10,030 nt of DNA, taken from contig PCSS01000112.1 in the NCBI GenBank assembly GCA_002771395.1, forward strand, positions 1 through 10,030. The letters run 5' to 3'. Each line of letters begins with the position of its first letter. Position 1 is the first letter of the stretch. Below the pieces are notes generated by a model that searched no databases, was not told the origin of the DNA, and saw nothing but the letters and a program-made list of their open reading frames with translations. The stretch comes from Bacteroidetes bacterium CG23_combo_of_CG06-09_8_20_14_all_32_9. Its GTDB lineage: Bacteria > Bacteroidota > Bacteroidia > Bacteroidales > GWA2-32-17. Positions 5,016 to 9,971 of this stretch are shown piece after piece. The translations under genes and the position numbers were made by a program.

Positions 5016-5031
5016 CTAAAATTTTATTTTG

Positions 5032-5871
5032 ATGACAAATTACGGCGGTATCCCTAAAGAATTTTCTGATTTAAAAAACGCTAAGGTAGTTATTCTGCCA
5101 GTACCTTACGATGGAACAAGCACATGGGTAAAAGGAGCCGACAAAGGGCCCGAAGCCATTCTTGAAGCGTCGGCAAATATGGAATTATACGATATCGAAA
5201 GCAAAAGCGAAATATATACAATTGGTATTCACACTGCTAAACCTGTAACAGAAAAAAGCAGTCCCGAAAAAATGACCGATGCCGTTTATAAAGAAGCAAA
5301 AAAATATGTTGGTAAATATTATACTGTTGTTATTGGTGGTGAACATTCGGTAAGCTTTGGAACTATAAAAGCGCATTTCGAAAAGTATAAAAATATGTGC
5401 GTTTTACAAATTGATGCTCACTCCGACCTTCGCCCCGAATACGAAGGCTCAAAATACAATCACGCTTGCGTAATGGCTCGCACCCGTGAACTTTGCAGGG
5501 TTGTGCACGTTGGTATTCGCAGTCAATGTGTAGAAGAATTACCATACATTATTCGTGAAAATATTTTTTATGCTCACGAAATACAGAATAATAACGATTG
5601 GTTCGAGAAAGCGGTTGAACGATTAACGGCAAATGTTTATATAACAATTGATTTAGACGGATTAGACCCATCAATAATGCCATCAACCGGCACACCGGAA
5701 CCCGGTGGTGTGGGTTGGTACCAGTTAATTTCATTTCTGCAAAAAGTATATCAAAAACGCAACGTTGTTGGGTTTGATGTTGTTGAACTCTGTCCCAATA
5801 AAATTAACACCGCACCTGATTTTCTTGCCTCAAAACTTATTTATAAAATGATTGGATATAAATTTAAGTAA
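5032..5871 (+). CDS. speB: Agmatinase (ureohydrolase family)
   Basis: A cytosolic dimanganese enzyme that hydrolyses agmatine to putrescine and urea, the second step of the arginine decarboxylase route to polyamines. Counted from the TTG at 5029 (280 residues; subtract one for the preferred ATG at 5032), all six ureohydrolase metal ligands are present. They are His106 in GGEHSVSFG, Asp129, His131 and Asp133 in QIDAHSDLR, and Asp208 and Asp210 in ITIDLDGLDPSIMPSTGTPEPGG. That last motif is typical of agmatinases, although arginase or another guanidino-ureohydrolase activity cannot be fully excluded. The ATG is preferred because the conserved fold starts just after it and a -7 box lies 16 bp upstream. 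Arginine decarboxylase, the partner enzyme, is not in the window. The deoxyhypusine synthase-like gene that may be its functional neighbour lies beyond the toxin-antitoxin cassette. Confidence 0.9.
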   Translation: MTNYGGIPKEFSDLKNAKVVILPVPYDGTSTWVKGADKGPEAILEASANMELYDIESKSEIYTIGIHTAKPVTEKSSPEKMTDAVYKEAKKYVGKYYTVVIGGEHSVSFGTIKAHFEKYKNMCVLQIDAHSDLRPEYEGSKYNHACVMARTRELCRVVHVGIRSQCVEELPYIIRENIFYAHEIQNNNDWFEKAVERLTANVYITIDLDGLDPSIMPSTGTPEPGGVGWYQLISFLQKVYQKRNVVGFDVVELCPNKINTAPDFLASKLIYKMIGYKFK

Positions 5872-5929
5872 TTGCAGCTATACTAAAAACGGGATATATT
5901 TATACATTTTTTCCAATTTCAGATTTCAT

Positions 5930-5999
5930 ATTTCAAATTGCAGATTGCATAACACAAATTGTAAATTGCAATATAATATATAAATAAATAATTTGAAAT
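5930..5999. repeat. AT-rich inverted repeat with AATTGCA units
   Basis: ATTTCAAATT (5930-5939) is the exact reverse complement of AATTTGAAAT (5990-5999). Between them, short units such as AAATTGCAGATTGCA and AAATTGTAAATTGCA repeat with small changes. It lies 23 bp from the minus-strand ACGGGGT box at 6023-6040, on the downstream side in that box's own orientation. It looks like a decayed repeat and no coding potential was seen. Confidence 0.5.
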
Positions 6000-6022
6000 T
6001 TTTCAACAATCAAAATGTACAA

Positions 6023-6092
6023 ATTCACCCCGTAGGATAACGCCATGAAAAAGGATAAAGAAAAAATAAAAACAATATCCAACGGGGTATAC
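6023..6092. repeat. Inverted pair of ACGGGGT boxes before the toxin-antitoxin cassette
   Basis: A minus-strand copy (6023-6040, reading TTATCCTACGGGGTGAAT on its strand) faces away from a plus-strand copy (6075-6092, ATATCCAACGGGGTATAC). The two could pair: ACCCCGT (6027-6033) with ACGGGGT (6082-6088), and GGAT (6035-6038) with ATCC (6077-6080), around one A-A mismatch. The rest of the 5872-6233 gap is AT-rich spacer with an AT-only inverted repeat (ATTTTTTT at 6205-6212, AAAAAAAT at 6223-6230) and no supported gene. Confidence 0.65.
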
Positions 6093-6233
6093 ACCAATAA
6101 AATAAAAAAACAGTGAGTAATTAAAATAAAAAATATTTCCGTATGTCATTGATGTACTATTATTTGTAAAAATCATTTTCCAAGTTGGGGTAACTACTTT
6201 TTTAATTTTTTTGAAATAAATTAAAAAAATATA

Positions 6234-6260
6234 TAAAAGTTCACATTATGTGAACTTTTA
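6234..6260. promoter_or_regulatory. Perfect 27-bp palindrome, probable operator of the toxin-antitoxin operon
   Basis: Two perfect 13-bp arms (left arm TAAAAGTTCACAT) meet around a single central T at 6247. The palindrome ends 3 bp before the -7 promoter box and covers the space where the -33 element and spacer would be, so a protein bound here would block initiation. HigA-type antitoxins are dimeric helix-turn-helix repressors of their own operons, so the antitoxin encoded at 6670-7206 is the obvious candidate ligand. As RNA it would be a strong hairpin, but it lies upstream of the expected transcription start. Confidence 0.8.
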
Positions 6261-6263
6261 ATT

Positions 6264-6271
6264 TATCTTTG
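6264..6271 (+). promoter_or_regulatory. Promoter -7 box of the toxin-antitoxin operon
   Basis: TATCTTTG fits TAnnTTTG exactly and is identical to the box in front of the T9SS protein gene (2848-2855). Transcription should begin a few bases further on, near 6275, leaving only about 15-20 nt before the codons for the conserved toxin N terminus. No good TTG -33 element is visible; the palindrome occupies that space. Confidence 0.65.
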
Positions 6272-6291
6272 TAAAATATTTCAACATAAAA

Positions 6292-6654
6292 ACGGCAAGA
6301 ATTATTGCAGTCAAACATATTAAAGAGTTTATGAATAAGCACTCTCAATATGCTGAAGCTTTAAATGCCTGGATTTCTATTGTTGAAGATTGTTGTTGGG
6401 AAAAACCTCAAGATATTTTAAATGATTTTAGTTCTACAAATATTCTTCACAAAAGGGATAATAAGCAAAGTATCAAATCACCCGAGAGAGCTGTGTTTGA
6501 TATAAAAGGAAATCACATTAGAATAATTGTAAAGTACCAATTTTTTACTAAACAGAAAAAATGCATATTATATCTCAAATGGATTGGAACTCATGCTGAA
6601 TACACTAAAATATGTGATAAAAACCAGCAGTACGATATTAATTTATTTAAATAA
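6292..6654 (+). CDS. higB: HigB-family (RelE-like) mRNA interferase toxin, start codon uncertain
   Basis: This is the toxin of a type II toxin-antitoxin pair; HigB proteins cleave mRNA on the translating ribosome. The C-terminal half carries the HigB_toxin signature: RAVFDIKGNHIRIIVKYQF, then a strand region ending WIGTHAEYTKI. The first ATG in frame is at 6331 (107 residues), but the frame upstream encodes RIIAVKHIKEF (6298-6330), which matches the conserved first strand and helix of the family. No ATG, GTG or TTG occurs in frame between the stop at 6259 and 6331. An ACG at 6292 (followed by Ala-Arg-Ile-Ile) sits where the start is expected, giving 120 residues; ATA at 6286 or ATT at 6301 or 6304 are alternatives. 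This may be deliberate weak initiation, a mutation, or a base error. The toxin-first order is classic for higBA, and the antitoxin follows after 15 bp. Confidence 0.82.
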   Translation, partial: TARIIAVKHIKEFMNKHSQYAEALNAWISIVEDCCWEKPQDILNDFSSTNILHKRDNKQSIKSPERAVFDIKGNHIRIIVKYQFFTKQKKCILYLKWIGTHAEYTKICDKNQQYDINLFK

Positions 6655-6656
6655 AA

Positions 6657-6660
6657 GGAG
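6657..6660 (+). promoter_or_regulatory. Shine-Dalgarno site of the antitoxin gene
   Basis: GGAG, within AAAAGGAGAAA, ends 9 nt before the antitoxin ATG at 6670. This is the only convincing Shine-Dalgarno sequence I noticed at a gene start in the window. It contrasts with the toxin, which has neither such a site nor a standard start codon, and it would favour antitoxin over toxin synthesis from the shared mRNA. Confidence 0.55.
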
Positions 6661-6669
6661 AAACAGATT

Positions 6670-7206
6670 ATGGAAATAAAAGTAATTAAAACCGAAGAAG
6701 ATTATAAGGTAGCCGTTAATTATTTGGAAGAATTAGGAGATGCCCCTGATTTTGAAAACAACCCTGAGTTGGTTGAAAAATTCGAATTGATTGAAAAACT
6801 TATTGAGTTATACGATAAAGAACACTATCCTATTGAAAAAGGAAATCCAATAGAAATTATCAAACTTAGAATGGAATATATGGAATTAAAACAAAAAGAC
6901 CTTATTCCTGCTATTGGAAGCAAAGGATTAGTTTCAGATGTATTGAATAAAAAAAGAAAAATTTCAAAAAGAATGATACGTGAATTGTCTAAATTACTCA
7001 ATGTTAGTCAGGAAATTTTAAATACTGAATATGAATTATCAATTACAAAATGCAAAGAAGTAGCTAAAGAAAATACTGTAACAGGAGATGATGTTTTTAA
7101 ATTTTCGAAAACACTTTTGGCAACTATTGGGGACTTTTCAAGCAATGTTTTTCAAAGAGGAGCAATTATTAATGTTATGCCAATGATAAATCGTTATAAA
7201 AAATGA
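6670..7206 (+). CDS. higA: HigA-family antitoxin with a C-terminal extension
   Basis: This antitoxin and probable autorepressor is expected to bind and neutralise the HigB toxin and to bind the 6234-6260 palindrome. Residues 1-123 look like a complete HigA of the Bacteroidota type. An N-terminal helical region (MEIKVIKTEEDY to YDKEHYPIE, about 1-56) is followed by an Xre-type helix-turn-helix (about 60-118) with LKQKDLIPAIGSKGLVSDVL and KKRKISKRMIRELSKLLNVS. Ordinary members end near here. This protein continues for about 55 more residues (124-178) to a hydrophobic, basic tail with VFKFSKTLLATIGDF and GAIINVMPMINRYKK. The extension resembles, in position only, the chaperone-addiction tails of antitoxins in tripartite systems. 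The stop overlaps the next start as ATGA, so the two genes are translationally coupled. Confidence 0.88.
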   Translation: MEIKVIKTEEDYKVAVNYLEELGDAPDFENNPELVEKFELIEKLIELYDKEHYPIEKGNPIEIIKLRMEYMELKQKDLIPAIGSKGLVSDVLNKKRKISKRMIRELSKLLNVSQEILNTEYELSITKCKEVAKENTVTGDDVFKFSKTLLATIGDFSSNVFQRGAIINVMPMINRYKK

Positions 7207-8894
7207 AAACAATAACATTTTATTCCTATAAAGGCGGTGTTGGAAGAACTTTAGCTCTTGCCAATATTGCAAAACGACTTGCAGAATTCGGAAAAAAAGT
7301 CTGTTTAATTGATTTTGACTTAGAATCTCCGGGACTGCACTATAAGTTCAAAGAAAACATCAGTAACAAAGTAATTAATCATGGAATTGTTGATTATATT
7401 AATTACTTCAATTGTCATAATTCTATTCCAAAATCTCTTGCTGACTATGTAACACCGATTGCTTTTAAAAATAAAAAGTTTAAAGACATTGATTTTATTG
7501 CAGCCGGAAACGTTTATTCTGATAAATATTGGAAAACTCTATTTTCAATAGACTGGGTAAACATGTTTTATAAAAAAGACAGTAAAGGAGTAGCTTTATT
7601 TGTTGACTTGAAAGAGAGAATAAGAAAAGAACTTAAACCAGATTATCTTTTAATTGATTCACGAACCGGTATTTCGGAAATTTCGGGTATTACAATGTCT
7701 CTTATGGCAGACGAAATAGTGTTGCTTGCCGCTAAAAATGAAGAAAACCTTCAAGGAATAAAACAAATCATTAAAACATTAGCTCAACCTGAAAATACGC
7801 TATCCGGCAAAATTCCAAAGTTGAATTTTGTGTTATGCAGAATACCATATTTTGAAAGACCTGATGAGAAAATCATTGAACAAAGAGCAATAAATGAGGT
7901 TGATAGAGATTTAAAGGCATTTATAAACGAGTCTAAACTACCTATTGCATTCGAAAAATTATTTATAATTCATTCCGACCCAACTTTAGAAATTGAAGAA
8001 AAGTTATTAATGGGCTATCAGTATGAAAAGGAAGAAGATAACAAACAATATATTCAAAGAAAATCCAGAATAAAGTCTCCAATTGCAACTGATTATTTAG
8101 AATTATTTGAAGAACTTACTAATAGCCAATTATCAGTTAAAGAGAAACAAATATTCAATAATATAAAAAAAACTGAATTTTTAATTGAAAGAACCAAGAA
8201 CACTTCCGATAATAATGAAAAGATAAAATTATTATTAGAAGCCATTCATCTAAATCCAAAATCAGATGTAGCTTATGCGCTTTTAGCAAATAGTTATTTT
8301 ATATATAAAAATCATATAGATGCTTTGGGTAATATTAATAAAGCAATTGAATTAAATCAAGAATCGAATGATTATTTGTGTAAAAAAGGAATTATTATTG
8401 AAGATATGGGAAAGGTTGAGGATGCAGAAAGTATTTTCAAAGAAGTAATAACGCGGGATAATAAAAATTTTTATGCTCTTATGTGGTTGGGGAGTATTTA
8501 TTCTGACAAAAAGAACTATGAAAAAGCTTTAGAATATTACTTGAAAGAAGTAAAGTTTTATCCTGATTACCCTGGTGGATATAACAACGTTGCAAATATA
8601 TACAGATTACAAAAAAATAATGAAAAGGCCTTTGAAAATATTTATAGAGCATTGGAGTTAGCCCCTAAAGATGCTACAAGTACCGGAACTTTAGCAGAAA
8701 TATATGCTCAATTAGGGAATGATAATGAATTTTATAAAAATTTTGAATTATCCTTATCATTTGGAATATCTAAAGAAACCCTTGAAAGGAGTTTTGAAAA
8801 AGAAGATGTTTATAAGCCATACCTTCAAGTTCCAAAATTTCTCAATCTTCTAAAGAAATATAATATTAACATTGATATTTCGAAATTCATATAA
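7203..8894 (+). CDS. KGGVGR-variant ParA/MinD-like ATPase with C-terminal TPR repeats
   Basis: This 563-residue cytosolic protein has two parts. Residues 1 to about 305 form a SIMIBI-type P-loop ATPase of the ParA/MinD kind. It has a deviant Walker A YKGGVGRT (9-16) that keeps signature Lys10 but has Arg15 in place of the usual P-loop lysine, a second acidic motif IDFDLESPGL (36-45), and a Walker B-like YLLIDSRTG (148-156). Residues about 336-523 form around five TPRs of 34 residues, for example ALMWLGSIYSDKKNYEKALEYY and GGYNNVANIYRLQ, normally a protein-binding scaffold. A short tail (about 524-563) ends in KKYNINIDISKFI. The gene overlaps the antitoxin stop by 4 bp and shares its operon. 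KGGVGR-type ATPases occur in several bacterial conflict systems; here a sensor, switch or chaperone-like role toward HigBA is inferred, not shown. Chromosome partitioning is unlikely because no ParB-like gene is near. Confidence 0.85.
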   Translation: MKTITFYSYKGGVGRTLALANIAKRLAEFGKKVCLIDFDLESPGLHYKFKENISNKVINHGIVDYINYFNCHNSIPKSLADYVTPIAFKNKKFKDIDFIAAGNVYSDKYWKTLFSIDWVNMFYKKDSKGVALFVDLKERIRKELKPDYLLIDSRTGISEISGITMSLMADEIVLLAAKNEENLQGIKQIIKTLAQPENTLSGKIPKLNFVLCRIPYFERPDEKIIEQRAINEVDRDLKAFINESKLPIAFEKLFIIHSDPTLEIEEKLLMGYQYEKEEDNKQYIQRKSRIKSPIATDYLELFEELTNSQLSVKEKQIFNNIKKTEFLIERTKNTSDNNEKIKLLLEAIHLNPKSDVAYALLANSYFIYKNHIDALGNINKAIELNQESNDYLCKKGIIIEDMGKVEDAESIFKEVITRDNKNFYALMWLGSIYSDKKNYEKALEYYLKEVKFYPDYPGGYNNVANIYRLQKNNEKAFENIYRALELAPKDATSTGTLAEIYAQLGNDNEFYKNFELSLSFGISKETLERSFEKEDVYKPYLQVPKFLNLLKKYNINIDISKFI

Positions 8895-8930
8895 ATTATT
8901 TAAAAATTTCAAATACAAATACTTATAATA

Positions 8931-9971
8931 ATGAAAAATCTTAAAAAAAGCGATGTTTTAAAAGAAACAATAAAACACATTGACATTAAAAAAATTGATT
9001 GTACTGCAATAATCAATGCAATGCGAGATATGTCTTTCACTTCGCGTGATACTGCTAACGCAGCCGATATTTATAAAAGAATGTTGGAAGATAAAAAATG
9101 TTCAGTAATCCTTACAATAGCAGGAAGCACAAGTGCTGCAGGATGTATGCAAGTTTATGTGGACATGGTAAAAAATAATATGGTTGATGCAATAGTTTCA
9201 ACCGGTGCATCAATTGTGGATATGGATTTTTTTGAAGCTCTTGGCTTTAAACACTACAAAGGCAGCCAATATGCAGACGATAAAACACTTCGCAGTTTAT
9301 ATATTGACCGAATTTACGATACTTATATTGACGAAGAAGAATTACAAGTTTGCGATAACACTATCGAAGAGATTGCTAATTCATTAGAACTTCGCCCATA
9401 TTCATCATGCGAGTTTATTAAAGAAATGGGAAAATATTTAACGAAGCGCTCAAAGAAAAAAGATTCTTTAATTCAAGCTGCTTACGAACATAATGTTCCA
9501 ATATTTTGCCCTGCTTTTACCGATAGTAGTGCTGGTTTTGGTTTAGTAAAACACCAGGTTTCGCATCCCAAAAAACATTTGTCTATTGATTCGGTTGCAG
9601 ATTTTCTCGAACTTACTCAGGTTAAAATGAAAGCCGGCGAAACAGGATTAATTATGATTGGTGGTGGTGTTCCTAAAAATTTCGCACAAGACATAGTTAT
9701 CTGTGCCGAAGTATTGGGACACGAAGTTCCTATGCATAAATATGCTGTACAAATTACAGTTGCCGATGTACGTGATGGTGCATGTTCAAGCTCTACACTT
9801 CGCGAAGCCTCATCATGGGGAAAAGTTGAAACTACTTTCGAGCAAATGGTTTATGCCGAGGCAACTACAGTACTCCCATTAATTGTAAGTTATGTTTATC
9901 ATTCGGGAGTTTGGAAAAAACGTAAACCTCGTGAATTTTCAAAAATTTTCGATAAAAAATATATTTTATAG
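8931..9971 (+). CDS. Deoxyhypusine synthase-family protein (possible homospermidine synthase)
   Basis: This 346-residue cytosolic NAD-dependent aminobutyltransferase belongs to the deoxyhypusine synthase family. Eukaryotic members modify eIF5A, which bacteria lack. Bacterial homologues characterised so far transfer the aminobutyl group to small amines, making homospermidine, so a polyamine product is likely. Family marks are LTIAGSTSAAG (61-71) and VSTGASIVDMDFFEALGFKHYKG (about 89-111), FCPAFTDSSAGFG (192-204) and GLIMIGGGVPKNF (239-251). The C-terminal SSWGKVE contains Lys298, which aligns with the catalytic lysine of human deoxyhypusine synthase (Lys329), and is followed by VYAEATTVLPLIVSYVY. 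The gene begins 36 bp after the ATPase-TPR gene with no obvious TAnnTTTG box in the gap, so it may depend on read-through or on a promoter inside the upstream gene. Agmatinase, two functional steps away in polyamine metabolism, lies about 3 kb upstream. Confidence 0.88.
   Translation: MKNLKKSDVLKETIKHIDIKKIDCTAIINAMRDMSFTSRDTANAADIYKRMLEDKKCSVILTIAGSTSAAGCMQVYVDMVKNNMVDAIVSTGASIVDMDFFEALGFKHYKGSQYADDKTLRSLYIDRIYDTYIDEEELQVCDNTIEEIANSLELRPYSSCEFIKEMGKYLTKRSKKKDSLIQAAYEHNVPIFCPAFTDSSAGFGLVKHQVSHPKKHLSIDSVADFLELTQVKMKAGETGLIMIGGGVPKNFAQDIVICAEVLGHEVPMHKYAVQITVADVRDGACSSSTLREASSWGKVETTFEQMVYAEATTVLPLIVSYVYHSGVWKKRKPREFSKIFDKKYIL

Follow-up and report, generated by a model that had tools for sequence, protein, structure and literature searches.

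In toxin-antitoxin-chaperone (TAC) modules, a SecB-like chaperone puts the toxin-antitoxin (TA) pair under a condition and lets it respond to phage proteins. PMC9519451 and PMC11980606 describe the chaperone as the third component of higBAC, mqsRAC and cmdTAC, and phage defence is shown for some TAC modules. The window analysed here (the whole stretch of 10,030 nucleotides) carries a cassette that resembles TAC modules: the third gene stands behind a type II TA pair, the antitoxin carries a C-terminal extension, and third genes of one kind accompany more than one TA family (PMC9519451, PMC11980606). In contrast to the SecB-like chaperone of TAC, the third protein of the window is a KGGVGR ATPase with TPRs.

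A similar gene order is given for PD-lambda-2 in Vassallo 2022 (PMC9519451), where HigB comes first, a HigA-like protein second, and a third gene is required for defence and not for neutralisation. However, according to the same paper, the HigA of PD-lambda-2 is fused to a C-terminal peptidase, absent from the HigA of the window, and its third gene is P4-antitoxin-like instead of encoding a KGGVGR-TPR ATPase. In PADLOC, the two upstream proteins of the window matched PD-Lambda-2 models, the match of HigA with the B model covering only positions 1-124 of 402. Two plain HigAs fitted this model better than the window HigA and both the peptidase and the P4-antitoxin-like gene are absent, therefore the PD-lambda-2 membership suggested by PADLOC was rejected. 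The PADLOC candidate PDC-M28 was matched through its B model by ATPase residues 2-215 only; no other PDC-M28 component was matched, and the two upstream proteins fitted no PDC-M28 model at E<=1. The ptuXYZ system (PMC11980606) likewise comprises three genes in one operon, among them those of an ATPase and of a toxin with the BECR fold (HigB/YoeB-like). Unlike the window, its PtuY is a PtuA-type ATPase, its first gene is a type IV restriction homologue and no antitoxin is described among its three genes. Among the papers searched, none contained the word KGGVGR or PDC-M28, and no title or abstract opening among the top-ranked papers listed pointed to a system composed of HigB, HigA and a KGGVGR ATPase.

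Location and organization of the cassette

The features of the locus are as follows.

5029-5871: agmatinase-like gene, left flank of the inserted segment
5872..8900 (ends approximate), + strand: inserted segment, the whole cassette, between the agmatinase-like and deoxyhypusine-synthase-like genes
6234..6260, no strand: perfect palindrome with 13-bp arms and a 1-bp centre, likely HigA operator
6264..6271, + strand: TATCTTTG, Bacteroidota-type -7 box TAnnTTTG
6292..6654, + strand: higB frame (PF09907), 6292 being aligned with the start of the relatives and the first ATG standing only at 6331
6670..7023, + strand: higA core, residues 1-118
7024..7206, + strand: higA C-terminal tail, residues 119-178, and stop; missing from the 29 plain HigAs measured
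7203..8135, + strand: KGGVGR variant ATPase domain of the third protein (NF047398 over residues 1-193)
8136..8894, + strand: TPR domain (residues 312-552) and C-terminus of the third protein (Pfam TPRs, AF2, Foldseek)
8931-9971: deoxyhypusine-synthase-like gene, right flank of the inserted segment

The two flanking genes, neither of which is a defence gene, adjoin each other in 8/8 relatives with the site, which is empty there. The blastn matches of the flanks to four same-genus loci stopped at 5867 and resumed near 8901-8926. These breaks and the adjacency of the flanking genes in the relatives indicate that 5872-8900 is a discrete insert. A search for a TSD or for repeats at the insert termini yielded only direct matches of 9 bp and imperfect repeats rich in A and T, none of them convincing.

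The spacing reported in the sequence-only reading was confirmed: 15 bp separate the end of the higB frame (6654) from the higA start (6670), and the higA stop at 7206 overlaps the ATPase gene start at 7203 by 4 bp. HigB, the tailed HigA and the KGGVGR-ATPase/TPR protein are apparently encoded in one transcription unit. The palindrome noted earlier at the promoter also stood up to a control, as 0/40 dinucleotide shuffles of the window contained a palindrome with arms of >=12 and a centre of <=3. At the corresponding place, L009 and L120 have perfect palindromes with 8-10 bp arms, and the one in L010 and L121 is degenerate. The palindrome of the window is likely the operator bound by HigA, the predicted repressor. 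TATCTTTG was identified by TAnnTTTG, the consensus of the Bacteroidota-type -7 box, which occurs in 5/5 loci.

HigB and HigA

The assignment of the first gene as a HigB toxin gene was retained for its family, the Pfam score with PF09907 being 63.1 bits at a cut-off of 27, and was weakened with regard to its start. The HigB of the linked relatives starts with ATG in 4/4 cases; the aligned codon of the window at 6292 is not ATG, GTG or TTG, and an ATG appears in the frame only 13 codons further on, at 6331. As the start of the relatives is missing, the window HigB may be untranslated or truncated. No HigB or HigA relatives were detected in IMG/VR with the corresponding profiles.

HigA was weakly matched by Pfam HTH_3 and TIGR02607, both below the cut-off. 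Two relatives which are likewise preceded by HigB share 79% and 59% identity with it, and the window HigA profile recovers ordinary HigAs. By homology, the pair is classed as type II HigBA, with a predicted HigB (RelE-like) toxin upstream of an HTH HigA homologous to ordinary HigAs. The proposed extension of HigA was found as a tail of about 60 aa beyond residue 118, and a long tail was present in 5/5 ATPase-linked HigAs. The linked HigAs were 165-178 aa long (5/5), whereas the 29 plain HigAs with the highest scores in the class were 118-123 aa long (29/29), with no KGGVGR-ATPase in the surrounding DNA examined. In the HigA tree, the linked proteins form one side of a branch with a support of 100/100 and the 29 plain HigAs are on the other side.

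An extra sample consisted of 18 loci of the class picked for long open frames (L127-L144), 17 of them new as L144 coincides with L055. The ATPase was present at 0/18 of these loci; the tails beyond residue 118 were 24-31 aa in seven, 69 aa in one (L130) and 0-4 aa in ten. Since 8/18 of these ATPase-free loci have tails of 24-69 aa, the tail alone is not diagnostic of the ATPase linkage. The AF2 model of HigA, with three sequences in the alignment, was uninformative (mean pLDDT 49).

The third protein

The third protein is 563 aa long and matched NF047398, the 'KGGVGR-motif variant AAA ATPase', with 167.8 bits (cut-off 90) besides Pfam TPRs, in agreement with the initial assignment; NF047398 is a domain name without an assigned function. 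The KGGVGR, DFDLE and DSRTG motifs were invariant in 9/9 ATPase sequences. KGGVGR has Arg where the P-loop has Lys, and for this reason ATP hydrolysis by the third protein is only putative. In the AF2 model (three sequences in the alignment), the pLDDT of the TPR part was >=80 per 10-residue block from residue 331 and that of the ATPase part was mostly <50. The best Foldseek matches were TPR superhelices. SecB was absent among the 25 best of the 30 Pfam families and the 25 best of the 38 NCBIfam families matched by the protein.

Recurrence of the three-gene order

The HigB-HigA-ATPase arrangement extends beyond this genome, being found in 5 loci from 5 families of a single taxonomic order. The five HigBA-linked ATPases do not form a supported clade on the ATPase tree, L121 being unresolved. 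The sequence-only reading had considered that the ATPase might mostly be found alone. This was not so in the close loci, where in 16/16 cases (window included) the small second gene ends between 4 nt inside and 31 nt before the ATPase start. The more distant KGGVGR proteins of other branches occur in other settings, with TIR-like, caspase or HTH genes instead of TA pairs. The TIR in L041 and L109 is our own reading of the sequence.

The match of G421 covers residues 346-553 only. The G924 ATPase is 286 aa long, and the frame read past its stop, close to a contig end, encodes no TPR. L126 (G025:C690) was left out of the loci examined. L037 (Aeromonas, genome scan) was rejected as MinD-like with KGGVGK by sequence reading; L038 (Aeromonas) gave the same match. 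The narrow ATPase profile detected nothing in IMG/VR, but wider ATPase profiles did find viral relatives. The search of phage records gave no match.

Other partners of the ATPase and the tail motif

As judged from gene neighbourhoods, the KGGVGR-ATPase partnership extends beyond HigBA, which is new. In Bacteroidota, on plasmids of proteobacteria and in IMG/VR contigs, relatives of the ATPase stand behind PD-T4-10-like, DUF6932/Xre, MqsA-type and HicA-like pairs. Four kinds of pair lie upstream of the ATPases of the Bacteroidota clade (8 rows, support 100/100) and two upstream of those of the plasmid clade (4 rows, support 97/93). The analysis of the plasmid matches covered 16 regions in which the ATPase was matched and left out 124 Escherichia plasmid records; a search with the L079 ATPase gave 35 records, 0 of them from Escherichia.

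In L039 and L029, the pairs match PD-T4-10 A and B and precede KGGVGR/KGGTGR ATPases, that of L029 belonging to a more distant tree branch. PD-T4-10 is presented in Vassallo 2022 (PMC9519451) as a two-gene phage-defence TA system with B as the toxin. Unlike this two-gene form, L039 and L029 have an ATPase gene after the pair, and of the 353 positions of B they match only 1-125 or 1-127. As B is the toxin there, the term antitoxin tail is unfit for the PD-T4-10-like pair.

The second protein before the ATPase is mostly tailed across the TA-like pairs. The motif F-x-L-[RKA], chosen post hoc, was present in 5/13 second proteins. It was then met in 3/4 new antitoxins (shuffle P 0.00015), or 2/3 without a near-copy (P 0.003), and in 0/29 plain HigAs. 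The strict motif was absent from the HigBA tails (0/5) and from L039, L029 and L028, and it was found in 0/4 proteins, HTH or unassigned, that neighbour more distant KGGVGR proteins. All four new antitoxins belong to the MqsA type, as do three of the initial five, so part of the motif is accounted for by common ancestry; outside the MqsA type it recurs in one locus each (L081, L040). The single ATPase-free MqsA relative found, whose record is not among the 35 with the L079 ATPase, ends without a tail.

Discussion

We consider the chances evenly balanced that the locus is a three-gene toxin-antitoxin-ATPase module, in which the ATPase would be an exchangeable gate, the TA pair an exchangeable output, and the infection would be aborted. 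HigA would repress the promoter at the palindrome and neutralise HigB, its tail possibly docking on the ATPase-TPR protein, whose nucleotide state would decide whether the antitoxin holds. A phage or other invader could perturb the ATPase via its nucleotide or via the groove of the TPRs; HigA would then fail, and HigB would cut mRNA at the ribosome. Phage defence is a putative function of the cassette. The ATPase is read as acting on the antitoxin like SecB in TAC modules, though it is unrelated to SecB. The earlier suggestion that it takes the place of the chaperone fits its occurrence beside several TA-like pairs, some of them with the shared tail motif. The gene order repeated in five families, the separate branch of the tailed HigAs and the discrete insert with its empty site also favour the module. 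Weighing against it are the HigBA tails devoid of the strict motif, the TPR-less ATPase of G924, the flanks free of defence genes, the failure of the HigB, HigA and narrow ATPase profiles to detect relatives in IMG/VR, and the higB frame without a usual start.

The ATPase-TPR protein could instead be a defence or stress protein by itself, sensor and effector in one, with the TA pair as an attached guard which kills or arrests cells upon loss of the ATPase gene or its shut-off by an invader. Such an addiction would account for a TA type that varies while the ATPase is constant, and for KGGVGR proteins of other branches that occur without TA pairs. However, no catalytic effector domain was found among the 25 best of the 30 Pfam families of the third protein, the second gene is tailed in the close clade, and the motif is common to three antitoxin-like types. 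A tail with a shared motif suggests physical coupling over mere linkage, and we regard the guard as rather improbable. HigBA functions alone elsewhere and HigA of the window's kind is common in the class (131/395 genomes, own genome included), as would be expected for an ordinary autoregulated HigBA with an unrelated cargo gene sharing its promoter. Recurrence in five families, the tail in all five linked HigAs, the overlapping or close gene starts and the other TA-like pairs beside the same ATPase make this quite unlikely.

The missing toxin start, where all four linked relatives have ATG, points to a decayed copy, whose remaining genes would be silenced or would be an antitoxin-ATPase remnant that confers immunity. 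Yet the three frames are otherwise open, the promoter and palindrome are intact, the ATPase is 83% identical to that of L009, and the start difference could be due to an assembly error, a rare start codon or translation from 6331. Decay is held to be unlikely.

Returning to the ATPase-gated module, a broader proposal, which we hold tentatively and at somewhat under an even chance, is a tripartite TA class under a TPR-bearing, MinD/ParA-like KGGVGR ATPase, which would run parallel to the SecB-controlled TAC systems without being related to them. One regulator family would gate at least five unrelated pairs (HigBA, MqsA-type, HicA-like, PD-T4-10-like, DUF6932/Xre), in several of them reading a short C-terminal docking motif gained convergently by the antitoxins. 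The antitoxin tail motif together with the KGGVGR gene would then be a handle for finding such systems, and the proposal gives a testable function for the otherwise unnamed KGGVGR ATPases. If it is true, third-party control of antitoxins would be a general design that has evolved repeatedly, with an unrelated nucleotide-switch ATPase in the seat of SecB.

Cassette, promoter and insertion site

The window (contig C317) originates from an assembly of 400 contigs and 2.28 Mb, determined to be 74% complete. The cassette consists of three genes:

HigB frame, ending at 6654; PF09907, 63.1 bits (family scan)
6670-7206; HigA gene
7203-8894; 563-aa third protein, KGGVGR-motif variant AAA ATPase with TPRs, NF047398, 167.8 bits (family scan)

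The cassette is a discrete insert in the window. A deoxyhypusine-synthase-like gene was present in 8 of the 9 genus and family relatives searched, and in all eight it directly adjoined the agmatinase-like gene, the ATPase being absent from the locus; in the window these two genes are about 3.0 kb apart. No ORFs of at least 60 aa were detected within the insert beyond HigB, HigA and the ATPase, and no target duplication or terminal repeats were evident at it. The insert begins on its left side with a short array of tandem repeats at 5910-5970, made up of 2.9 copies of a 21-nt unit.

The promoter region contains a 27-nt perfect palindrome plus TATCTTTG. The perfect palindrome reported in the sequence-only reading was borne out, and none with arms of ≥12 appeared in 40 dinucleotide shuffles of the window. 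The TAnnTTTG box is common to all five HigBA-linked loci, and a perfect palindrome was found at the corresponding place in three of them (the window and the relatives' loci L009 and L120), the palindromes of L010 and L121 being degenerate.

In all four linked relatives, higB has an ATG aligned with window position 6292, where the window codon is not a usual start. The first later ATG is at 6331, and a start there would cost 13 residues; the remaining frame is intact, including the C-terminal WIGTHAEY stretch. The window copy of higB may be impaired, may use a rare start codon or may reflect an assembly error.

Recurrence of the module and the HigA tail

The ATPase was matched at E≤1e-40 in at least 8 of the order's 257 genomes (the window's own among them), at 10 places, at E≤1e-20 in at least 5 of 395 class-draw genomes (own included; the match in G421 aligned over the TPR part only) and, with the wider profile at E≤1e-25, in at least 23 of 395 phylum-draw genomes, where only the window matched at full length; these tallies are lower bounds, since 3 to 5 candidates were scored per genome. 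The closest named matches of the window ATPase were two Bacteroidota MAGs. The upstream genes were tabulated for the order's places except G025:C690. HigBA preceded the ATPase in five of the 10 (G000, G056, G073, G985 and G924), a pair without family assignment in the second place of G056, a PD-T4-10-like pair in G066, and larger proteins without family assignment in G025:C79 and G019. The check proposed with the sequence-only reading, recurrence of HigBA beside ATPase homologues, gave five genomes of the order, with a tailed HigA in every one. The operon and its recurrence are regarded as practically certain. The tripartite module appears to be rare. By itself, HigA is widespread: its profile matched 131 of 395 class-draw genomes (own included).

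The five linked HigAs are 165, 168, 169, 172 and 178 aa long. The 29 best-scoring plain HigAs of the class draw measured 118-123 aa, and no ATPase was present in the flanking DNA covered, which reached at most 1.5 kb in either direction and was shorter in a few cases. The ATPase was also absent from 18 plain HigA loci chosen for long frames, one of which repeats L055; tails of 24-31 aa were found in 7 of these loci and of 69 aa in one. None of the 325 plasmid records matching HigA covered 80% of the tailed protein. A tree built from 34 HigA cores placed the five linked HigAs together on one side of a branch with 100/100 support.

Partners and sequence features of the ATPase

The ATPases of L039, L040 and L028 are 39-45% identical to the window ATPase and share its clade (100/100), in which the five HigBA-linked ATPases do not form a supported group, L121 being placed without support. 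They follow a PD-T4-10 A/B pair, a DUF6932 and Xre-HTH pair, and a pair without family assignment, respectively. L028:1003-3843 holds the second ATPase of G056, with a 274-aa and 190-aa pair upstream where HigBA would otherwise stand; repeats of some 34 residues, nearly identical to one another, extend up to the contig end. Plasmid relatives are 23-24% identical. In R. gallicum, R. phaseoli and Massilia they stand behind a protein of about 120 aa without family and an MqsA-family antitoxin, and in Polymorphobacter behind two proteins that match PDC-M06A and B of PADLOC, the first of which, without a Pfam match, reads as HicA-like.

Four IMG/VR contigs (L158-L161) encode full-length ATPases behind MqsA-type antitoxins, with L159 left out of the family scan and the L161 antitoxin scoring under the MqsA cut-off. 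No ORF of ≥50 aa was found directly upstream of the L159 antitoxin. At the others (L160:1430-4239, L161:3072-5896, L158:3074-5854), proteins of 116-121 aa precede the antitoxin; no Pfam match was obtained for them at E≤0.05, and they possibly represent an undescribed toxin family. Genes that we take to be relaxase- or integrase-like lie nearby in L159, L168 and L171, so 'viral' is the collection's label.

The spacing is tight in all 16 close loci, the window among them: the stop of the second gene lies anywhere from 4 nt within the ATPase gene to 31 nt ahead of it. KGGVGR proteins that are less closely related, including that of L029, adjoin PD-T4-10-like, TIR-like, caspase, HTH or family-less genes. 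At L041:82-2792, a presumably TIR-like gene precedes a KGGVGR ATPase whose C-terminus is extended by a long additional region, which we take to resemble a GH25-type lysozyme fold, and at L109:1706-5247 a presumed TIR-like protein precedes a KGGTGR ATPase with an apparently formylglycine-generating-enzyme-like C-terminal region.

KGGVGR, DFDLE and DSRTG were invariant in all nine aligned ATPases. In KGGVGR, the deviant Walker A signature lysine is presumably retained and arginine replaces the usual P-loop lysine. The AF2 model of the third protein was confident for the TPR part only; the G924 ATPase stops short of the TPR region, with 290 bases left to the end of its contig. ATP hydrolysis is not to be assumed, because Kaur et al. 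(PMC7159879) predicted the MinD/ParA-like domains of some conflict systems to be inactive.

Candidate docking motif

F-x-L-[RKA], a pattern picked after viewing 13 second proteins (those directly before the ATPase), occurs at the C-terminus of five of them (EFQLRR, TFSLKR, GFRLRP, GFDLRR, GFCLAR), of MqsA, HicA-like and DUF6932/Xre types, the latter two with one locus each. Among four antitoxins fetched after that choice, three carried the strict motif and all four the loose F-x-L (L160, with FELF, only the loose one). The shuffle P was 0.00015 (strict) and 0.00025 (loose), or 0.003 and 0.0008 without the near-copy L159. These four, like three of the first five carriers, belong to the MqsA type or look like it, so shared descent accounts for part of the recurrence. 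The motif was absent from the 29 plain HigAs and from four proteins adjoining distant KGGVGR proteins, and L174, the single MqsA relative without an ATPase to turn up in plasmids, has no tail. In the HigBA tails the strict motif is missing, and the positions they have in common are different ones. Judged from sequence, F-x-L-[RKA] is a possible docking motif.

Discussion

In TAC modules, according to PMC9519451 and PMC11980606, the antitoxin bears a C-terminal extension and is supported by a SecB-like chaperone, an arrangement that a phage protein can perturb. By analogy, we propose that the HigA tail ties the antitoxin to the ATPase-TPR protein, which it would either need or signal to. The ATPase could stabilise the antitoxin until disturbed, or it could be an active trigger, comparable to PD-lambda-2C, which PMC9519451 describes as required for defence and dispensable for neutralisation. 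The stabiliser is somewhat preferred. A functional coupling of ATPase and antitoxin is probable, and docking through the tail is an even call.

At L039:1450-4054 and L029:2710-5169, PD-T4-10 A and a shortened PD-T4-10 B (B model positions 1-125 and 1-127 of 353, respectively) precede a KGGVGR or KGGTGR ATPase, which adds to a validated defence TA a third gene that does not figure in the sections consulted of its paper. No description of this three-gene composition was found among the literature matches listed, and as most subscription papers lay outside the search, its absence is unproven. The cassette is placed among the tripartite TA systems, outside both TAC and PD-lambda-2, and a role in phage defence is somewhat more likely than not.
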